Source of the DNA: a virus
DNA length: 45,864 bases
Virus record (IMG/VR): IMGVR_UViG_3300032294_001619
Location: 1-45,864 of that record
Strand: one strand, 5' to 3'
Shown here: piece by piece, positions 4,181-32,950 of the stretch
Layout: each line of letters begins with the position of its first letter
How positions within the stretch are numbered: position 1 is the first letter of the stretch
Made by a program: the position numbers and the translations under genes
Notes under the pieces: model-generated
What the model saw: the letters and a program-made list of their open reading frames with translations, nothing else
Told to the model about the DNA's origin: nothing
Databases searched by the model: none

Positions 4181-7100
4181 ATGTCCCAACCATATAAGAG
4201 CGGTAGACAACAGAATCTTAATCTTGGTATTACCTCAGTTACCGAGAATCGCACAGTCTTACAGACAATCGGTAAGGTTGGGATTGGAACAACAAACGCA
4301 CAAAACCACTCTTTGTTTGTTGTTGGGTCAACAAATATTACAGATCAACTTTATGTTAGTGGTGTACAAGTTTCTGGCGGCGCTTCAATTAGTCAAGACA
4401 TTGTTACAAGAAATCTTTTAGCATCTGGTATTTCTACATTTACTGGATTTGTTGATGCGAATGGTGGTCTTGATGTATTTGGTCAAACTGAACTTGATGA
4501 TTTAAATGTAAGTGGTATTGCAACAATTCAAAACCTGAATGTTCAGAGTGGTTTTGATGTATATGATACTCAGGCAGTATTCCATAACAATCTTTATGTT
4601 GCAGGAAATCTGAGTATTGGTGGAACTACAACAGTTATTAGTGCCCAGGATTTAAGAATCTTTGACAAAGAAATTACTCTTGGTATTACAACTGACGCTT
4701 TTGGAAATGATATCTCAAATGATATTACTGCCAATCATGGTGGTATTGCGATTGCTTCTACCGAAGGTTCTCCGTTAGTTAATCTTGCTCTTACAGGACT
4801 TAGCAGTTTACCAGCAACCTACAAACAGTTAATGTGGGTTGCTGCAAACTCTTATGGTATCGGAACAACCGATGCCTGGATGTTTAATTATGCAGTTGGT
4901 ATTGGATCAACTCTGGTTCCAAATGGAGTTCGTTTTGCTGTTAAGGGAATTCAATTTACTGATGATACAATCAGTACACCTAATCTAAATGTTTCCAATA
5001 ATTTAAGTGTTTCTGGTATTACCACTCTCGCTTCAAATGGTGGTATTACTACAACTGGTGGTGATCTCTATGTTGGTGGAGATCTTTATGTAAAGGATGA
5101 TATTTTCTTTGATGAATTTAGTGCCCGTAATGCAGTTCTCACTGGGAATTTAAATGTTTCTGGTGTATCCACATTTGCTGGAATTACAACTGTTACTGGA
5201 GATACTTTATTCTCCAAGCAATTAAGTCTTTCTGGTGTATCGACATTCCAAGGTAATGTACATTTAGGTGATAATGATACCTTAAATTTTGGTGATGGGA
5301 ATGATTTAAAAATTGTTCATACTGGTTCTAATAGTTTTATTCAAGATGTTGGAACTGGAGCTCTTTTCATTGACTCAAGTAGTGTTTTTCATAGATCTAA
5401 CACACATACATTCCAAAATGGTGGTGGAACAGAAACTCTTGCAATCTTCACTCAAAATGGTTCAGTAGCACTTTATTATGATAATGTAAAAACATTTGAA
5501 ACCTCTGGTATTGGTGCAACCGTTTATGGAACACTCAATACAACTCAACTGAATGCGACTGGAATTGTAACAGGTTCTTCTTTCCGTCCAAGCACTGGAT
5601 ATTATCAATCGGCAAACGGAACCAATGCATTCTATGTTTATGACGGAACTGGAAATGTAGCATTCCAAGGCACTATTGGTGTTGGTCAAATTAATAGTGG
5701 ACAAGGATATCAGGCAATTAATTTATCCTCTGATACTAAACCAACAGTAACATTCATTGATAATGGCATTTTCAATGGTGTAGTCACTGCTCGCCAATTT
5801 GTTGGTGATATTAATGCTGGTGTTGCTACTATCACCAATGCTAATATCACTAACCTTAGTGGCACCAATCTTAATTATTCTGGAATTGGCACTATTGATG
5901 GTGTTACAATTTCAAGTGGTATTGTAACTTCTTCTCAACCAGGAGTAACCACAGTCAAGTATTATGGTGATGGTTCAAACCTGATTGGTGTTAATGCATT
6001 CAATGTTATCAATCAGGACATTTCATCATCTCCTGTATTTCCAACCTTTGCAAACAGCACTGGTGTAACTTCTATTGGTATTGCTCCATTTGAAGTTGGA
6101 TATGTCCCCACATCAGGAAATCTTGGAATTGGTTCAACAAATCCAACTGCCAAGTTAAATGTTATTGGTGATGCAATTTTTACAGGAATTGTAACGGCAA
6201 GAAATTTTGTTGGTGATATTAGTGGCACCAATCTTAATTATTCTGGAATTGGCACTATTGATGGTGTTACGATTTCCTCGGGTATTGTTACATCATCGCA
6301 ACCAGGAGTAACAACCGTTAAGTATTATGGTGATGGTTCGAACCTGATTGGTGTTAATGCATTTAATGTTGTCAATCAAGTTTTATCAGCATCTCCTGTT
6401 TATCCAACCTTTGCTAATAGCATTGGTGTTACTTCAATTGGTATTGCTGATAATCAGATGGGATTTATTCCCACATCAGGAAATCTTGGAATTGGATCAA
6501 CAAATCCAACAGCAAAATTACAAGTTGTTGGTGATACTTTAATTTCTGGTGTTGCCACTGCAAGGCAGTTTGTTGGTGATGTAAATGCAGGTATTGCAAC
6601 AATTAACAAACTTGATTTAAATCAAATTTCACCTGATGGAGTTGATTTTGGTGGCGCTCAATATCTTTTAAGAGCAACTGGTACTGGCACTTGGGAATGG
6701 GCATCTATTCCTGGTATTTTCTCTGTTAACAATATCCTGAATGGATTTAATGTATATGATGAAGGAACAGTTGTAGGAACTGCTGGAAGCATTACAACTC
6801 TTGATTTTAGAGGCAATAATATAGTCGCTTCTGCTGATCCTGCTCCTAATGGCATTGCTACTGTTAGAGTTTCTGATACACCATCATTCCTAAATCTTAC
6901 AGTTTCTCCTGGCATTTCCACCTTAGGGCATATAAGTGCCACATCAGCAACATTTACTGGTAATGTTTCTATTGCAGGAACATTAACGTATGAAGATGTA
7001 ACTAATGTTGATTCCATCGGAGTCATTACTGCAAGAAGTGATGTCAGTGTTGGTGGTGGTCTTTCTGTTACTGGAGTCAGCACTTTTAACAATACGGTTA

Positions 7101-16951: not shown

Positions 16952-17548
16952 ATGAATTTTTTCAAAAAAGAAAAATTATCTGATGTGATTATTATTGATA
17001 ATTTTTTAAGTGAATCATATTTTAAAATCTTACAAGATATGGTTACATCTGAATTTTTTCCTTGGTCATTTACGAGAGAAATAACTAATACTAATATTGA
17101 CTCTAGATTAGGATCTTATGGATTTCAGTTTTTGTTAGGTGATTATGATAATTTCAGGAGATGTTCGGAAACTGATTTGACGATGGGGTGCCTTAAAACT
17201 ATAGGAGATTATTTAAATGCTAAAAGAGTATTTAAAGCAAGATATGATATGACACTTTACAATTCAGAAAAGTTTTTACATAAACCACATATTGATGGTG
17301 ATCATATACCAAACTATTTTTCTACAATACTTTATATGAATAATTCTGATGGAGATACCGTCATTTATAATGAAAAGTGTTATAAAATTGAAGAAATGGA
17401 TTATGATATGCAATATACAATTAAGAAAACAGTAACACCAAAAGAAAATCGTTTAGTTTTATTTGAGGGTAATGTTGTTCATACTGGGTACTCTCCTTCT
17501 AATAATAAAAACAGAATTCTTCTTAACGCAGTTTTTGACTTGGGGTAA
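16952..17548 (+). CDS. 2OG-Fe(II) oxygenase-like protein
   Basis: A 198-residue protein with the double-stranded beta-helix ligand set: H113-I-D115 (KPHIDGDH), H177 (VVHTGYS) and R188 (NNKNRILLNAVF). It begins with a VIIIDNFLS(E) strand-turn common in phage and bacterial P4H-like enzymes. It should hydroxylate an unknown target using iron, O2 and 2-oxoglutarate. It is bracketed by 62-bp direct repeats that carry promoters, so recombination between them would delete it cleanly. Codon use is AT-rich. The ATG at 16952 follows a very AT-rich leader without an obvious ribosome site. Confidence 0.82.
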   Translation: MNFFKKEKLSDVIIIDNFLSESYFKILQDMVTSEFFPWSFTREITNTNIDSRLGSYGFQFLLGDYDNFRRCSETDLTMGCLKTIGDYLNAKRVFKARYDMTLYNSEKFLHKPHIDGDHIPNYFSTILYMNNSDGDTVIYNEKCYKIEEMDYDMQYTIKKTVTPKENRLVLFEGNVVHTGYSPSNNKNRILLNAVFDLG

Positions 17549-18232: not shown

Positions 18233-18955
18233 ATGGCAGAACAAATGACAGAAATGCAGTTGATGTTCCAAGAACGTCAAAACACTGGAACTGCTTGGAC
18301 TCACAATGAATCCTTTGAGAAGAATGGATACTTGGTCATCAAGAATCTATGGGATGCAGAAGAACTCTATCATCCACTTCCAGAAGAGCGTGGGCAGATT
18401 AACTATTGGGGCAAACAGGTAGATCAGTTTAATCATACTCCAGTAGAGCAACAGGTTGAAGGTTCTCTTGCGCGTTACTGGCACCCACAGTATCGTCAGA
18501 TTCATACTGGTATTCGTCTCAAACTTGAAGAAGCACTGGGACGGAAACTTTATAATACTTATTATTATGATCGTTATTATTTTCCAGGACAGGAACTGAC
18601 TCGTCACGCAGACCGTGATGCTTGTGAGATTTCTGTAACGGTTCACATCAGCACCAATCTGGAAGGGAAGGATGCTGATTGGCCCATCTGGATTAAAACT
18701 CCTGATACTTATGCTGATAAAAAGAAGACACAAGTATTAGTTCCCGGTGAGAATCGTTCTGTGGTTCTTCAAGCAGGTGATGGTATGGTTTATAAAGGTT
18801 GTGAACGCCCACACTGGCGTGATGCAATGCCTGGTGCAAAGAAGAGTAAGAAACTGTTTGGTAAGAATACAGAACCTTATTATCACCAAATTTTCTTTCA
18901 TTATTGCTTGCAAGATGGGCAAAGGGCACACTGCGCTTGGGATAGGGCACGATGA
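18233..18955 (+). CDS. 2OG-type / cupin-fold oxygenase-like protein
   Basis: A 240-residue protein with a YFPGQEL.RH.DRD.CEISVTVHI block, where H125-A-D127 would bind iron, then a VLQAGDGMVYKGCERPHWRD block with H194 as the third ligand. The usual distal Arg is absent; Q219 in YYHQIFFHY sits near its place, so the cosubstrate site may differ. This oxygenase type is familiar from cyanophages. It lies 8 nt after the PKHD gene and its stop overlaps the start of 18952 (ATGA), giving a three-gene oxygenase operon. Confidence 0.75.
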   Translation: MAEQMTEMQLMFQERQNTGTAWTHNESFEKNGYLVIKNLWDAEELYHPLPEERGQINYWGKQVDQFNHTPVEQQVEGSLARYWHPQYRQIHTGIRLKLEEALGRKLYNTYYYDRYYFPGQELTRHADRDACEISVTVHISTNLEGKDADWPIWIKTPDTYADKKKTQVLVPGENRSVVLQAGDGMVYKGCERPHWRDAMPGAKKSKKLFGKNTEPYYHQIFFHYCLQDGQRAHCAWDRAR

Positions 18956-19506
18956 AAACCCCACTTTTTGAATATCCTTCTTATCAATACCAGATTGATG
19001 ATTGGGATTTTAAAAAGAAGGGACTTCTCAATCGCATCAACTCCCAAAAGTTTGTAAGAACCACACTACAAACTTTTGAAACTGACAGGCAAACAAACAA
19101 GAAGTCATATCTACATTACTTTCAAGACCTCATCAAACCTCAACTGTTTGAGTTTTGTCAGGAAGCACAGGTCACTTGTAGTATGACTGATTGTTGGTCT
19201 GTGAGATATAAACAAGGAGACCACCAGACGATTCACAACCATCGCAGTTGGGGATTCTCTGGTGTTCTTTATGTGGAGTTTGATTCAAAACATCATACTC
19301 CCACTTGTTTTGTTGCGCCGTGGCAAGATCCCAGAAATGACACAACAACATTGTCATATCCACAAGATGTCAAAGAGGGAACATTACTTATTGTTCCCTC
19401 TTATACACTACATTTTGTCCATCCTAATCAATCAAGAAAGCAAAGAACTATTATTGCTTTTGATTTGCTACCCAAACTTCCAGATCATCAAGCAATAAAT
19501 ATTTGA
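18952..19506 (+). CDS. 2OG-Fe(II) oxygenase-like protein (TIGR02466-like)
   Basis: A 184-residue protein. Residues 80-110 (CWSVRYKQGDHQTIHNHRSWGFSGVLYVEF) resemble the HxH...SGV.Y(V/L) block of TIGR02466 putative 2OG oxygenases, here H95-N-H97 in place of HxD. EGTLLIVPSYTLHFVHPN supplies H154, with H157 nearby, and R165 in KQRTIIAFD would bind 2OG. It is translationally coupled to 18233 by ATGA. The minus-strand gene at 30678 has the same layout (HYH...SG.YY, FPS..KH, R). Target unknown. Confidence 0.72.
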   Translation: MKTPLFEYPSYQYQIDDWDFKKKGLLNRINSQKFVRTTLQTFETDRQTNKKSYLHYFQDLIKPQLFEFCQEAQVTCSMTDCWSVRYKQGDHQTIHNHRSWGFSGVLYVEFDSKHHTPTCFVAPWQDPRNDTTTLSYPQDVKEGTLLIVPSYTLHFVHPNQSRKQRTIIAFDLLPKLPDHQAINI

Positions 19507-25852: not shown

Positions 25853-26428
25853 ATGAGAGAATTTTTTGTGCTGGATAATTTTTTTGAAGATCCAGATGAG
25901 GTTAGAAAAAGAGCTTTAAATTATTTTAGATTTTATAATTCAACAGATCATCCAGATCCTCAACATTTATTGCAGTTTCCTGGATTGAGAACCAATTATA
26001 TTAATCTTCAAGATACTGAATTATCTAAAATGATTATTGAAAAACAAGCGGCAATAACAAACTTTATTACAAATAACCGCGTAGATTGGTCGCATGAAGA
26101 CAATAGAGTGTGGAATACTTTTTCACTTACTTTTAAAAATATAAACAAGCAGTTACCTCAATGGCATCAAGATTTTATTGGAGAAAATGATAATAAGTGT
26201 GAGTATTATTATGCTGGTGTTGTTTATTTAAATAAAAATGTAAGAAAAGGGAGAGGAACAAAAATAAAACTTTCTTCTGGTGAAATTGTAAATGTTGAGA
26301 ATAAGTATAATCGTTTTGTAATATACAATTCAAAACTTCCACATACGATTGCAAAATCTTTTGGATGGAATAAAGATAATGGTAGACTTGTAATGTCTCA
26401 ATTTTTTTCTTTCAATCTAAAAAAATAA
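25853..26428 (+). CDS. 2OG-Fe(II) oxygenase-like protein (DUF6445-like)
   Basis: A 191-residue protein: FFVLDNFFEDPDEVRKRAL at the start, then QWHQDF (H105-Q-D107), a YYAGVVYLNKN strand, NRFVIYNSKLPHTIAKSFG (H164) and GRLVMSQFF (R178). The metal- and 2OG-binding set is complete. The layout resembles the phage and marine-bacterial group often annotated DUF6445; assignment from memory. It occupies the slot after glycine-rich protein 4, where sulfotransferases sit in cassettes 2 and 3. AT-rich. A TATAAT (25847-25852) directly abuts the ATG and so is unlikely to be its promoter. Confidence 0.78.
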   Translation: MREFFVLDNFFEDPDEVRKRALNYFRFYNSTDHPDPQHLLQFPGLRTNYINLQDTELSKMIIEKQAAITNFITNNRVDWSHEDNRVWNTFSLTFKNINKQLPQWHQDFIGENDNKCEYYYAGVVYLNKNVRKGRGTKIKLSSGEIVNVENKYNRFVIYNSKLPHTIAKSFGWNKDNGRLVMSQFFSFNLKK

Positions 26429-29355: not shown

Positions 29356-30681
29356 ATGGCTCCCATTGTTACTTCTCTGGCATCGATTGTAAAACAGTTT
29401 GGTATTGGCGCTGTTCTTGCTGCTCCTAGTGGTGGTGGATTCACTTATACTGGTGCAAGTGGAGGTGTGGTTAGTGATTATGTAGATCCAGGACCTGGTA
29501 CTAGATATCGTGCTCATATTTTCACATCATCTGGAACTTTTACAGTCACTGATCCTGCTATTGCAAGTGTTGAGTATCTTGTTGTTGCAGGCGGTGGTGC
29601 AGGAGGATTTGGACACGGTGGTGGAGGGGGTGCTGGTGGATTGCGAACTAATCTTTCTGGGCATCCATTAGCAGGTTCAGCATTTCCAATATCACCAGGT
29701 CCTTATAGTGTAACTGTTGGTGGTGGCGGAGCCGGTGCTAATGTTTATCATACAGTTGGCGCTAATGGTACTCCATCGGCATTTTCTACTATCACTTCTA
29801 CGGCAGGTGGTGGTGGTGGTATCAATAATGGTGGAACTTATATAGGAGGAAGTGCTGGAGGTTCTGGTGGTGGTGGATCAGGAGCACCCAATAATCCAAA
29901 TAAGGGAGCAGGAAACAGTCCACCAACATCACCATCGCAAGGAAATCCTGGCGGTGATGGTGCAGGAACTTCCGGTTCATCGGCTGTCGCTGCTGGCGGT
30001 GGCGGCGGTGCAGCAGGTGCAGGAACACCTGCATCGGGGTCTACAACTCCCGGACCTGGTGGAGCAGGAGTTCAAATTGCTATTGCTGGGCCCGCATCTA
30101 CTACAACTGGTGTTGGGGCATTAAATCCAGGCCCAGGACAATATCAATGGTTTGCCGGCGGCGGCGCCGGTTCTGGATCTGCGGGTAATAGTTCTGCAAC
30201 AGGTGGTGTAGGTGGTGGAGGAAGTACAGAACCTGGTTCTAATGGATTAGGATATTCTGGAGTATATGCTACTGGCGGCGGCGGTGGTGGCGCATCTTCA
30301 AAAGGACAAGATTCCCAAGCATCAGGATTCACCAATGGTACAAATCAACCATCTTTTGGAGGAAATGGACAACCTTTTCCACTTTATCAAGGACCTTTAA
30401 TAGGCATACCTTCTTTAAATCCTTTTGGTGGATTTTTTGGTGGTGGTGGCGGAGGTGGATCTGGTAGAGATGGTTGGGTTAATAATGCAGGAGCAGCACC
30501 AAAACCAAATTATACTCCTGGTGGTGGCGGAAAAGCAGCAGACCACAATGGATCAGGGCCGTTAAATAATACTGTTGCTGGTGTTGATTATTTAGGTGGA
30601 GGTGGAGGAGGATACTCCTTTTTCCCAGAAGTATCATTATCTCAACCTGGTGGAAAAGGTATAGTTGTTATAAGAATTTAA
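29356..30681 (+). CDS. Glycine-rich adhesin-like protein 5
   Basis: At 441 residues the largest of the five. It starts MAPIVTSLASIVKQFG, then YRAHIFTSSGTFTVTDPAIASVEYLVVAGGGAGG, a GGGGGAGGL block, a PGPYSVTVGGGG strand, and at least six further polyglycine runs divided by Pro/Ser/Thr/Asn loops. It ends GGKGIVVIRI. Its N-terminal opening matches cassette 3. It overlaps the minus-strand oxygenase at 30678 by 4 nt, tail to tail. Likely tip adhesin by analogy with T-even gp38. Confidence 0.8.
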   Translation: MAPIVTSLASIVKQFGIGAVLAAPSGGGFTYTGASGGVVSDYVDPGPGTRYRAHIFTSSGTFTVTDPAIASVEYLVVAGGGAGGFGHGGGGGAGGLRTNLSGHPLAGSAFPISPGPYSVTVGGGGAGANVYHTVGANGTPSAFSTITSTAGGGGGINNGGTYIGGSAGGSGGGGSGAPNNPNKGAGNSPPTSPSQGNPGGDGAGTSGSSAVAAGGGGGAAGAGTPASGSTTPGPGGAGVQIAIAGPASTTTGVGALNPGPGQYQWFAGGGAGSGSAGNSSATGGVGGGGSTEPGSNGLGYSGVYATGGGGGGASSKGQDSQASGFTNGTNQPSFGGNGQPFPLYQGPLIGIPSLNPFGGFFGGGGGGGSGRDGWVNNAGAAPKPNYTPGGGGKAADHNGSGPLNNTVAGVDYLGGGGGGYSFFPEVSLSQPGGKGIVVIRI

Positions 30682-31319
30682 GGTAAATATAAGTTACTCG
30701 TTTCTGCTTTTAAGGTTCCTTTAAGAAAGACATTAAAAGCAATAGAATATCTAACTATATTAGTATTATTTTTTAAAACTTTATGTTTTAAATAACTGGG
30801 AAAAAACATTAAATCATATTTTTGTGGTTTGATTGTGTATGAAGTAGAATTAATGTGATTCCATTCGGTAATATTTGCGTTAATATTTAATGCACACTTT
30901 TCGTGAGTTGGCGAATAAAAACTGATTTCTGAAGGGATTTCTTCAAACGGATAATAGGATCCACTAAAAAAACTATTACTGTGATAATGCTCTTCTCCAC
31001 TTTCACCAGGGCAGCAACAAGTGCTCCACATAGCACAAATGTATGGTTCTATATCTTCATCATAACAATAAATTTTTTTCAATGAGGATCTAACAATTTC
31101 ATTAATTTTTTCTAGTAATGATAAATATTTTTCATTACTTTCTAATTTAGTAAATGCATTTTTTCCGTCAGACAACATCTCTTGATTAATATTTCCACTG
31201 GCAACATATTCTCTATGATTTTGAATAATATCTCTTTTTATAATGTCAATGTCATTTAGATATAATTTTGTTCTAAAAAGTGGAGTAGGAAATAAGTTTT
31301 CTAAATCAACAGGTTCCAT
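30678..31319 (-). CDS. 2OG-Fe(II) oxygenase, TIGR02466-like
   Basis: A 213-residue protein on the minus strand. The N-terminus LENLFPTPLFRTKLY is the family's usual opening. Ligands: H111-Y-H113 in EEHYHSNSFFSGSYYP, H179 in MFFPSYLKHKVL and R190 in VRYSIAFNVF. HxH in place of HxD is seen here as in the 18952 product. It is the only minus-strand gene in the adhesin region and points toward glycine-rich protein 5, so it is probably transcribed separately. AT-rich. Its start lies 57 bp from that of the divergent halogenase gene. Confidence 0.82.
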   Translation of the reverse strand: MEPVDLENLFPTPLFRTKLYLNDIDIIKRDIIQNHREYVASGNINQEMLSDGKNAFTKLESNEKYLSLLEKINEIVRSSLKKIYCYDEDIEPYICAMWSTCCCPGESGEEHYHSNSFFSGSYYPFEEIPSEISFYSPTHEKCALNINANITEWNHINSTSYTIKPQKYDLMFFPSYLKHKVLKNNTNIVRYSIAFNVFLKGTLKAETSNLYLP

Positions 31320-31375: not shown

Positions 31376-32542
31376 ATGAATATTGCAATTATTGGGAAAG
31401 GGACTAGCGCAATTATACAAGCATTAATGTTTATAAGATATGGGCATAGGGTGACTATATTTTATGATTCTTCTATACCAGAAATATGTGTTGGTGAGTC
31501 AACAACTCCATTAGTTATGAATCTAGTGCAAAATGTTTGTAAGATTTCTATTGGAGATATGCTTGATGATGGAATTGTATCATTAAAGAATGGAATCAAA
31601 TTTATAAACTGGGGAAATCAAGATTCATTTAGGCATCATTTTTTTAGTAATACTCCCTTAGCGGCACATTTTCTTACTAAAAAATTTAACTTATATATTC
31701 ACAATATTTTAAAAAACTATGGGGTTGAATATATTGATGCGAATGTTGATAATGTTATTGAAGATGATGATAGTGTGATAATTTGTGGCAGAAAATTTGA
31801 TTTTGTCACCCATTGTACAGGTTGGGATGGTTTGAATTTGCAATATAGAAAAGCAATTTTTGAAACTGTAAATTCAGCCCTAGTATATAATGATGATTAT
31901 ATTGAAGATTATTCCTACACTGTACATAGGGCTCATGAAAATGGATGGCAGTTTGAACTTCCATTTCCAGAACAAAATCTGTCTAGACAAGGATACTTGT
32001 TTAATAGAAATTACCAGAGTTTAGATGAGGCTAAATCTTTAGTTAATAAAAAAGATATGAAGTATTTGGAATGGGAGCAAAGATTTTCTAAAAAATTTAT
32101 TCTCACTAAAAGACAATCTGTTAATGGCAATTGCTTGTTTTTTATAGAACCTTTACAAGCATTATCATTACATTATTATGTAATCTTTGCAGAAATGATT
32201 TGTTCATATCTGAATGATATGAACCTTCAAAAATATAATGAAATGAATAAAGACTATTTGGAAAAAATTATTACATATCAAAATCTTATAGCATTTCATT
32301 ATTCTTATGGTTCTAAATTTAAATCTAATTTTTGGAAGGATACTCAAAATAATGCAAAATCAATAGTTCAAAAATTAGCAATACAAGGAGATACTTTAAC
32401 ATACGAAGATTATATTAGAAATGATATTTTTTATGGCACAGAGTATTCCAAATTAGGATGTTTTACTTCTGAAGATCATTTGTATATTCATTGTGGAATG
32501 ATGAATAAAAGTAAAAAAGATATTTTAAACATAAATGCTTAA
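31376..32542 (+). CDS. Flavin-dependent (tryptophan) halogenase-like protein
   Basis: A 388-residue protein with a Rossmann FAD site at the N-terminus (IIGKGTSAI, residues 5-13) and VGESTTP (39-45), the halogenase form of the FAD loop. K71 in LKNGIKFINWG aligns with the catalytic Lys79 of PrnA. G189-W190-x-F-x-L-P matches GWxWxIP with one Trp replaced by Phe. EPLQALSLHYY (257-267) aligns with PrnA EPLESTGIYFI, so the catalytic Glu and following Ser are replaced by Gln260 and Ala261. It is much shorter than PrnA (538). A cyanophage halogenase able to iodinate (VirX1, phage Syn10) is known to me from memory; this may be a relative. A flavin reductase is not seen nearby. Confidence 0.8.
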   Translation: MNIAIIGKGTSAIIQALMFIRYGHRVTIFYDSSIPEICVGESTTPLVMNLVQNVCKISIGDMLDDGIVSLKNGIKFINWGNQDSFRHHFFSNTPLAAHFLTKKFNLYIHNILKNYGVEYIDANVDNVIEDDDSVIICGRKFDFVTHCTGWDGLNLQYRKAIFETVNSALVYNDDYIEDYSYTVHRAHENGWQFELPFPEQNLSRQGYLFNRNYQSLDEAKSLVNKKDMKYLEWEQRFSKKFILTKRQSVNGNCLFFIEPLQALSLHYYVIFAEMICSYLNDMNLQKYNEMNKDYLEKIITYQNLIAFHYSYGSKFKSNFWKDTQNNAKSIVQKLAIQGDTLTYEDYIRNDIFYGTEYSKLGCFTSEDHLYIHCGMMNKSKKDILNINA

Positions 32543-32713: not shown

Positions 32714-32950
32714 ATGAATTTCACGGTTTATTCAAAGACAGGTTGCCCATATTGCGATAAGGTCAAACAAGTATTGGAGTTGACAAAACAACCCTTTGTC
32801 GTGTATACTTTGGATGAAGATTTTACACGAGAACAATTTTACGCTGAGTTTGGAGAAGGATCTACTTTCCCTCAGGTAATTTGTAATGAACAAAAGATCG
32901 GAGGATCCGTTGACACAATCAAATTCCTCAAAGAAAATCAAATCGTCTGA
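32714..32950 (+). CDS. grx: Glutaredoxin
   Basis: A 78-residue dithiol glutaredoxin. The active site C11-P-Y-C14 is followed by the helix, a cis-proline loop TFPQV (51-55), and GG(S)VDT (63-68) that binds glutathione. Length and motif order fit small bacterial and phage glutaredoxins, which reduce ribonucleotide reductase and other disulfides in the cytoplasm. It opens the replication-side gene block with its own sigma70-type promoter. The 3' end overlaps the next reading frame. Confidence 0.95.
   Translation: MNFTVYSKTGCPYCDKVKQVLELTKQPFVVYTLDEDFTREQFYAEFGEGSTFPQVICNEQKIGGSVDTIKFLKENQIV

Follow-up and report, generated by a model that had tools for sequence, protein, structure and literature searches.

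Our results suggest that the halogenase encoded in the window, a 45,864-base IMG/VR virus record, belongs to an uncharacterised short class of flavin-dependent halogenases (FDHs) that is under selection, and that it is not a damaged form of VirX1. Judged by sequence kinship, the nearest known chemistry of this class is peptide bromination. We favour, with a probability of about 45%, a reading in which this FADH2-dependent halogenase is functional, has an open active site and modifies an aromatic side chain in a peptide or protein.

Motifs of the halogenase gene

The window covers part of a T4-like cyanophage genome, with psbA at its start, then a long tail-fibre module, followed by halogenase, glutaredoxin, thyX, phoH and ssb genes (Table 1). 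The halogenase product matched the Pfam Trp_halogenase family (PF04820) at 1.5e-26 (93.7 bits; cut-off, 21) and PHROG phrog_2928, 'tryptophan halogenase', at 4.7e-60; these matches and our motif readings agree with the original prediction of a viral flavin halogenase homologue with altered motifs. An AlphaFold (AF2) model (pLDDT, 93.4; pTM, 0.92) matched FDH structures (Foldseek E values down to 1.6e-23; TMq of about 0.8; Z scores of 30 to 40), including the PrnA structure 2ard (Z, 35.8), although such a match of a model is no demonstration of function. By profile score and predicted fold, the protein is an FDH homologue of the PF04820 superfamily, and we consider it probable that it functions as an FDH.

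Table 1. Positions in the window of the halogenase gene, its motifs and adjacent genes
Feature	Position	Strand	Basis
Glycine-rich tail-type protein (PF21722), last of the tail-fibre module	29356..30681	+	Pfam; context only
2OG-Fe(II) oxygenase (PF13759), divergent, 56 bp upstream of the halogenase	30678..31319	-	Pfam, PHROG
Short FDH homologue, 388 aa	31376..32542	+	ATG start
GxGxxG FAD-binding motif, reads GKGTSA, residues 7-12	31394..31411	+	Sequence
K71, counterpart of catalytic Lys PrnA K79 / SrpI K84	31586..31588	+	PrnA alignment; K in every relative spanning the site
GWQFELP, residues 190-196; GWxWxIP with second Trp replaced by Phe193	31943..31963	+	Sequence, alignment
EPLQA, residues 258-262; catalytic Glu replaced by Gln261, Ser by Ala262	32147..32161	+	Sequence, HMMER alignment, relatives
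Glutaredoxin	32714..32950	+	Pfam

Alignment confirmed the proposed equivalence of K71 with the catalytic lysine of PrnA, and K71 is likewise aligned with that of VirX1; the counterpart is a lysine in every aligned row that covers the site. The predicted change of GWxWxIP to GWQFELP was also borne out. For the change of EPLES to EPLQA, the motif had been read correctly but its numbering was one too low, the residues being Gln261 (codon CAA, 32156-32158) and Ala262, not Gln260 and Ala261; Q261 faces E346 of PrnA in the HMMER alignment. The FAD-binding motif retains two of its three glycines, the final one being an alanine, as in the S-SCSM1 protein. Two hallmarks of canonical PrnA/RebH-type tryptophan halogenases, WxWxIP and the catalytic Glu of EPLES, are thus absent from the window protein, and the Fx.Px.Sx.G motif is incomplete (F256 and P259 are present; Ser is replaced by Ala262 and Gly by Ser264). 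The reduction of the substrate-binding part in this short protein, claimed earlier, is real: the alignment jumps from about residue 107 to about residue 158 of PrnA (window residues 94 to 97), and the protein has a reduced C-terminal part as well. Together with the altered motifs, this makes a substrate other than free tryptophan likely, as had been suggested. A sequencing error at Gln261 was ruled out, since Gln is also present in P-TIM40 and in a dozen relatives found independently in IMG/VR.

A short class allied to peptide brominases

When the window protein alone was searched against IMG/VR, no relative was confirmed; an alignment-based (profile) query returned at least 565 stretches, and relatives of the halogenase are present in 65 phage records. 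In an alignment of 190-odd FDH sequences, a long class, which includes VirX1, has mostly 470 to 540 residues, GWxWxIP and mostly EPLESNG, whereas a large short class, found in cyanophages, has mostly 360 to 440 residues and GWxF instead of GWxW. The Phe is near-universal in the short class, as is Trp in the long class, and the short class formed one side of a branch in both trees. The nearest named relatives of the window protein are the 'tryptophan halogenases' of S-SCSM1 (44.6% identity) and P-TIM40 (37.6%). We know of no assay of any phage short-class FDH.

The short-class profile also had matches in MAGs of bacteria and archaea and in Prochlorococcus MIT 0701. One cellular FDH (L106) lies beside a precursor ending in a core LCCCW and a YcaO gene, those of L112 and L116 have the catalytic Lys at position 84, and NHLP export genes adjoin the FDHs of L112, L114 and L116. 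SrpI, an obligate brominase (PMC12615548), acts in a leader-dependent manner on the SrpE precursor, whose core is LCCCW, and its K84A mutant is inactive (PMC10858898). On the strength of the precursor with YcaO, Lys 84 and the export genes, we take the cellular FDHs in srp-like clusters to be SrpI-type peptidyl-tryptophan brominases, a typing by gene context and not by the SrpI sequence itself. In a careful tree, with distant phenol-type relatives as the root, the phage FDHs of the short class fell together with the SrpI-type rows and the MIT 0701 protein (L111) in one 31-row clade (support, 100/94), in which the phage rows were a sub-clade (98/97) sister to the SrpI-type rows and not within them. 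This clade has long branches, some of its internal placements are open, and the window protein shares only about 25% identity with the SrpI type. An exact-peptide search, which reaches close kin only, did not find SrpI-type sequences in viral contigs.

An earlier review described tryptophan halogenase as absent from known hosts (PMC2984593). The genome of MIT 0701, a cyanobacterial host, does encode a short FDH, which lies near the SrpI-type branch, but strong matches were found in only 2 of 151 sampled genomes of its family, MIT 0701 and one other, with scoring limited to 10 candidates per genome; a recent host origin of the short FDH is therefore unsupported.

VirX1 fell outside the short/SrpI clade and grouped with ordinary bacterial FDHs. 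The original prediction had mentioned it as a known iodinating cyanophage halogenase; its tree placement and its retention of GWxW and EPLES lead us to reject it as the nearest model. A functional likeness could nevertheless be argued, with the window protein an open-site small-molecule halogenase using bromide or iodide on free host metabolites during infection and Gln261 suited to phenols or pyrroles. Like VirX1, the window protein is viral and lid-less, and it is short; VirX1 takes many free aromatics and favours iodide (PMC8407142; PMC7948982), and in many cyanophages the short FDH gene lies amid scattered metabolic-type genes. Against this stand the separate clades, the division of the classes by GWxF and GWxW and the canonical long FDH that Gln-type genomes also carry, which indicates that the roles probably differ. 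We regard such a small-molecule role as unlikely, though worth keeping in view.

Glutamine at the catalytic site

SrpI-type rows read GWIFVIP and FMEPLEATAI, with the Glu kept. As GWxF and EPLEA thus occur in the type of an active obligate brominase, the nearest kin of known activity, the changes of Trp to Phe and Ser to Ala are signs of neither damage nor inactivity, and the change of Glu to Gln is the only real departure of the window protein from SrpI-type motifs. Gln is present at this site in the window clade, S-SSM7, L047-L051 and a long-form Syn1/Sf-CH3 group, Glu is back in the S-SCSM1 subclade and His is found in L022. Well-supported branches force at least four changes at the site, and in the trees Gln and Glu interchange inside the window's own clade. 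No alternative Glu was found to suggest that the catalytic residue lies elsewhere, a possibility raised in the original prediction. The His-bearing protein is a short FDH (L022, 1293-2429) with FTEPMHALSI and a Leu in GWxL. In S-PM2 (L016; AJ630128, 2986-4473), a long FDH reading EPLQATS is broken by an in-frame stop into pieces of 80 and 415 codons.

The consequences of this substitution differ among known enzymes. Replacement of Glu by Gln made PrnA about a hundredfold slower (PMC5727139) and abolished the activity of the malbrancheamide FDH (PMC8407142), whereas the catalytic Glu is unconserved in phenol and pyrrole FDHs (PMC10306068). Distant phenol-type relatives in our data read FLDPVFSSG here. 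Since phenol and pyrrole FDHs manage without a conserved Glu, it is plausible that the Gln-type FDHs act on an activated, phenol-like ring.

The mutant data and the loss of the Glu could also mean that the protein is catalytically dead or nearly so, retained for a structural or regulatory role as a flavoprotein in a phage that also has a canonical FDH. A long canonical FDH (Lys, GWxWxIP, EPLES) does occur in five of five Gln-type records of at least 50 kb, three of which are one clade, and in none of nine Glu-type records of that size, a post hoc observation that represents about three independent lineages. The Gln-type records with such a gene are P-TIM40 (W02), S-SSM7 (W04), G002, G003 and G004. 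Among the nine, G007 carries a divergent paralogue of 461 aa in tandem, and a 38-kb Glu record (G011) does carry long FDHs. However, dN/dS (Nei-Gojobori) in the Gln subclade L035-L044 was 0.05 to 0.12 for most pairs with unsaturated dS and 0.12 to 0.20 for the three closest informative pairs, far below 1, which argues against a dead enzyme; between the window and its relatives, divergence was too high for dN/dS to be informative. Across 14 Gln rows, 56 of 379 columns were invariant, including K71, G190, W191, F193, P196, EPLQA and flavin-site residues, against a mean majority frequency per column of 0.59. With the interchange of Gln and Glu added, we think a dead enzyme improbable; the inactivity that had been suggested finds no support in the invariant lysine or the purifying selection.

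Several short-class phages carried FDH genes in tandem or an additional FDH. Side-by-side pairs occur in L052, L054-L056, L059 (a long protein of 512 aa and a short one of 370 aa) and L061, and P-TIM40 has an additional, third copy with GWCYNIP.

A further alternative is that halogenation has been lost and that the protein is a QhpG-like flavin monooxygenase acting on an aromatic residue within a peptide. WxWxIP, thought to prevent hydroxylation by FDHs (PMC10696468), is altered in the window protein, QhpG is an FDH-like enzyme that acts on peptidyl Trp (PMC7876137), and cellular kin gave weak matches to the QhpG model. Yet the window protein has no QhpG match, the catalytic Lys is retained throughout and GWxF is shared with the SrpI type, of which the one characterised member brominates. 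This, too, seems to us an improbable explanation.

Proposed function and comparison with known systems

Fold, lysine, clade, selection and motif states are read from the sequence, and from here on we infer activity, halide, peptide substrate and phenol preference. In our preferred reading, a peptide-acting halogenase, a host reductase would supply reduced FAD, as in two-component FAD halogenases. Reduced FAD, O2 and a halide, probably bromide, would yield hypohalous acid, which would reach K71, and K71 would halogenate the aromatic side chain, held in a wide site that lacks the lid. Both this wide site and the kinship with SrpI point, tentatively, to a substrate that is a peptide or protein; loss of the helical lid is known to broaden the substrate range of VirX1 (PMC7948982). 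As Gln261 cannot take over from the Glu as a base or in stabilising charge, the ring is probably activated beforehand, for example tyrosine or a hydroxylated aromatic. Against this reading are the Glu-to-Gln mutant data, the low identity to SrpI types, which keep Glu, and the gene content of the window, in which we found neither a flavin reductase (PF01613) nor, among the small ORFs around the halogenase, a candidate RiPP-like or proteusin precursor.

The neighbourhood offers leads to a substrate. Of 17 records, 6 had a 2OG-Fe(II) oxygenase within 1 kb of their short FDH, where 2.0 were expected (P = 0.009, kinship among records ignored); at wider limits, with three thresholds tried in all, P was 0.026 (1.5 kb) and 0.05 (3 kb). 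We treat this nearness as a lead only, and the divergent oxygenase next to the window halogenase as a possible partner. Three other oxygenase-like genes (16952-17548, 18952-19506 and 25853-26428) are dispersed with it in the tail-fibre module. Tail or structural genes adjoin or lie close to some window-clade members (L021, L022, L025, L031 and L033) but not others (L029 and L035-L044), and clade members are also found in replication regions. Variable tail regions often pick up cargo genes, and nearness to tail genes is again a lead and not proof. In L042, a heme oxygenase gene (6290-7000) immediately follows the Gln-type FDH, an arrangement seen in several phages of that group.

It is conceivable, although we would not expect it, that cyanophage protein halogenases and neighbouring 2OG-Fe(II) oxygenases decorate aromatic residues, either in tail or adhesin proteins of the phage itself or in a host surface protein, the Gln type having moved from Trp to Tyr; a phage virion protein as the target is similarly a long shot. 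If true, this would be a previously undescribed virus-encoded protein halogenation system.

Cyanophage 'tryptophan halogenases' have been catalogued for years without a role, apart from a speculative one in antibiotic protection (PMC2984593). Their split into a long class, like VirX1 and bacterial FDHs, and a short class grouping with a peptide brominase turns the question of their substrate into a concrete hypothesis that can be tested. The recurrent natural change of Glu to Gln provides ready-made variants for probing the role of the catalytic Glu in FDHs, and new peptide-halogenating biocatalysts might also come of it.

Among known systems, the closest is SrpI, the peptidyl-Trp brominase encoded in srp (proteusin) clusters from sponge microbiomes; the cellular sequences of SrpI type share with the window protein its clade, short length, Lys, GWxF and an Ala after the Glu site. 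The window protein differs in its Gln, in being phage-borne and in that no YcaO or NHLP exporter gene was found near it. The P-TIM40 short FDH is alike in EPLQA and in the order halogenase, glutaredoxin, thyX and phoH, whereas that of S-SCSM1 retains Glu (EPLEA); to our knowledge, neither has been characterised. VirX1 of cyanophage Syn10 (PDB 6QGM) is also a viral FDH with the Lys and a lid-less open site, but has 507 aa, GWVWNVP and EPLESNG. PrnA, a tryptophan 7-halogenase, is similar in fold and Lys position and differs in having Glu346, WxWxIP, the segment 108-157 and a C-terminal part that binds Trp.
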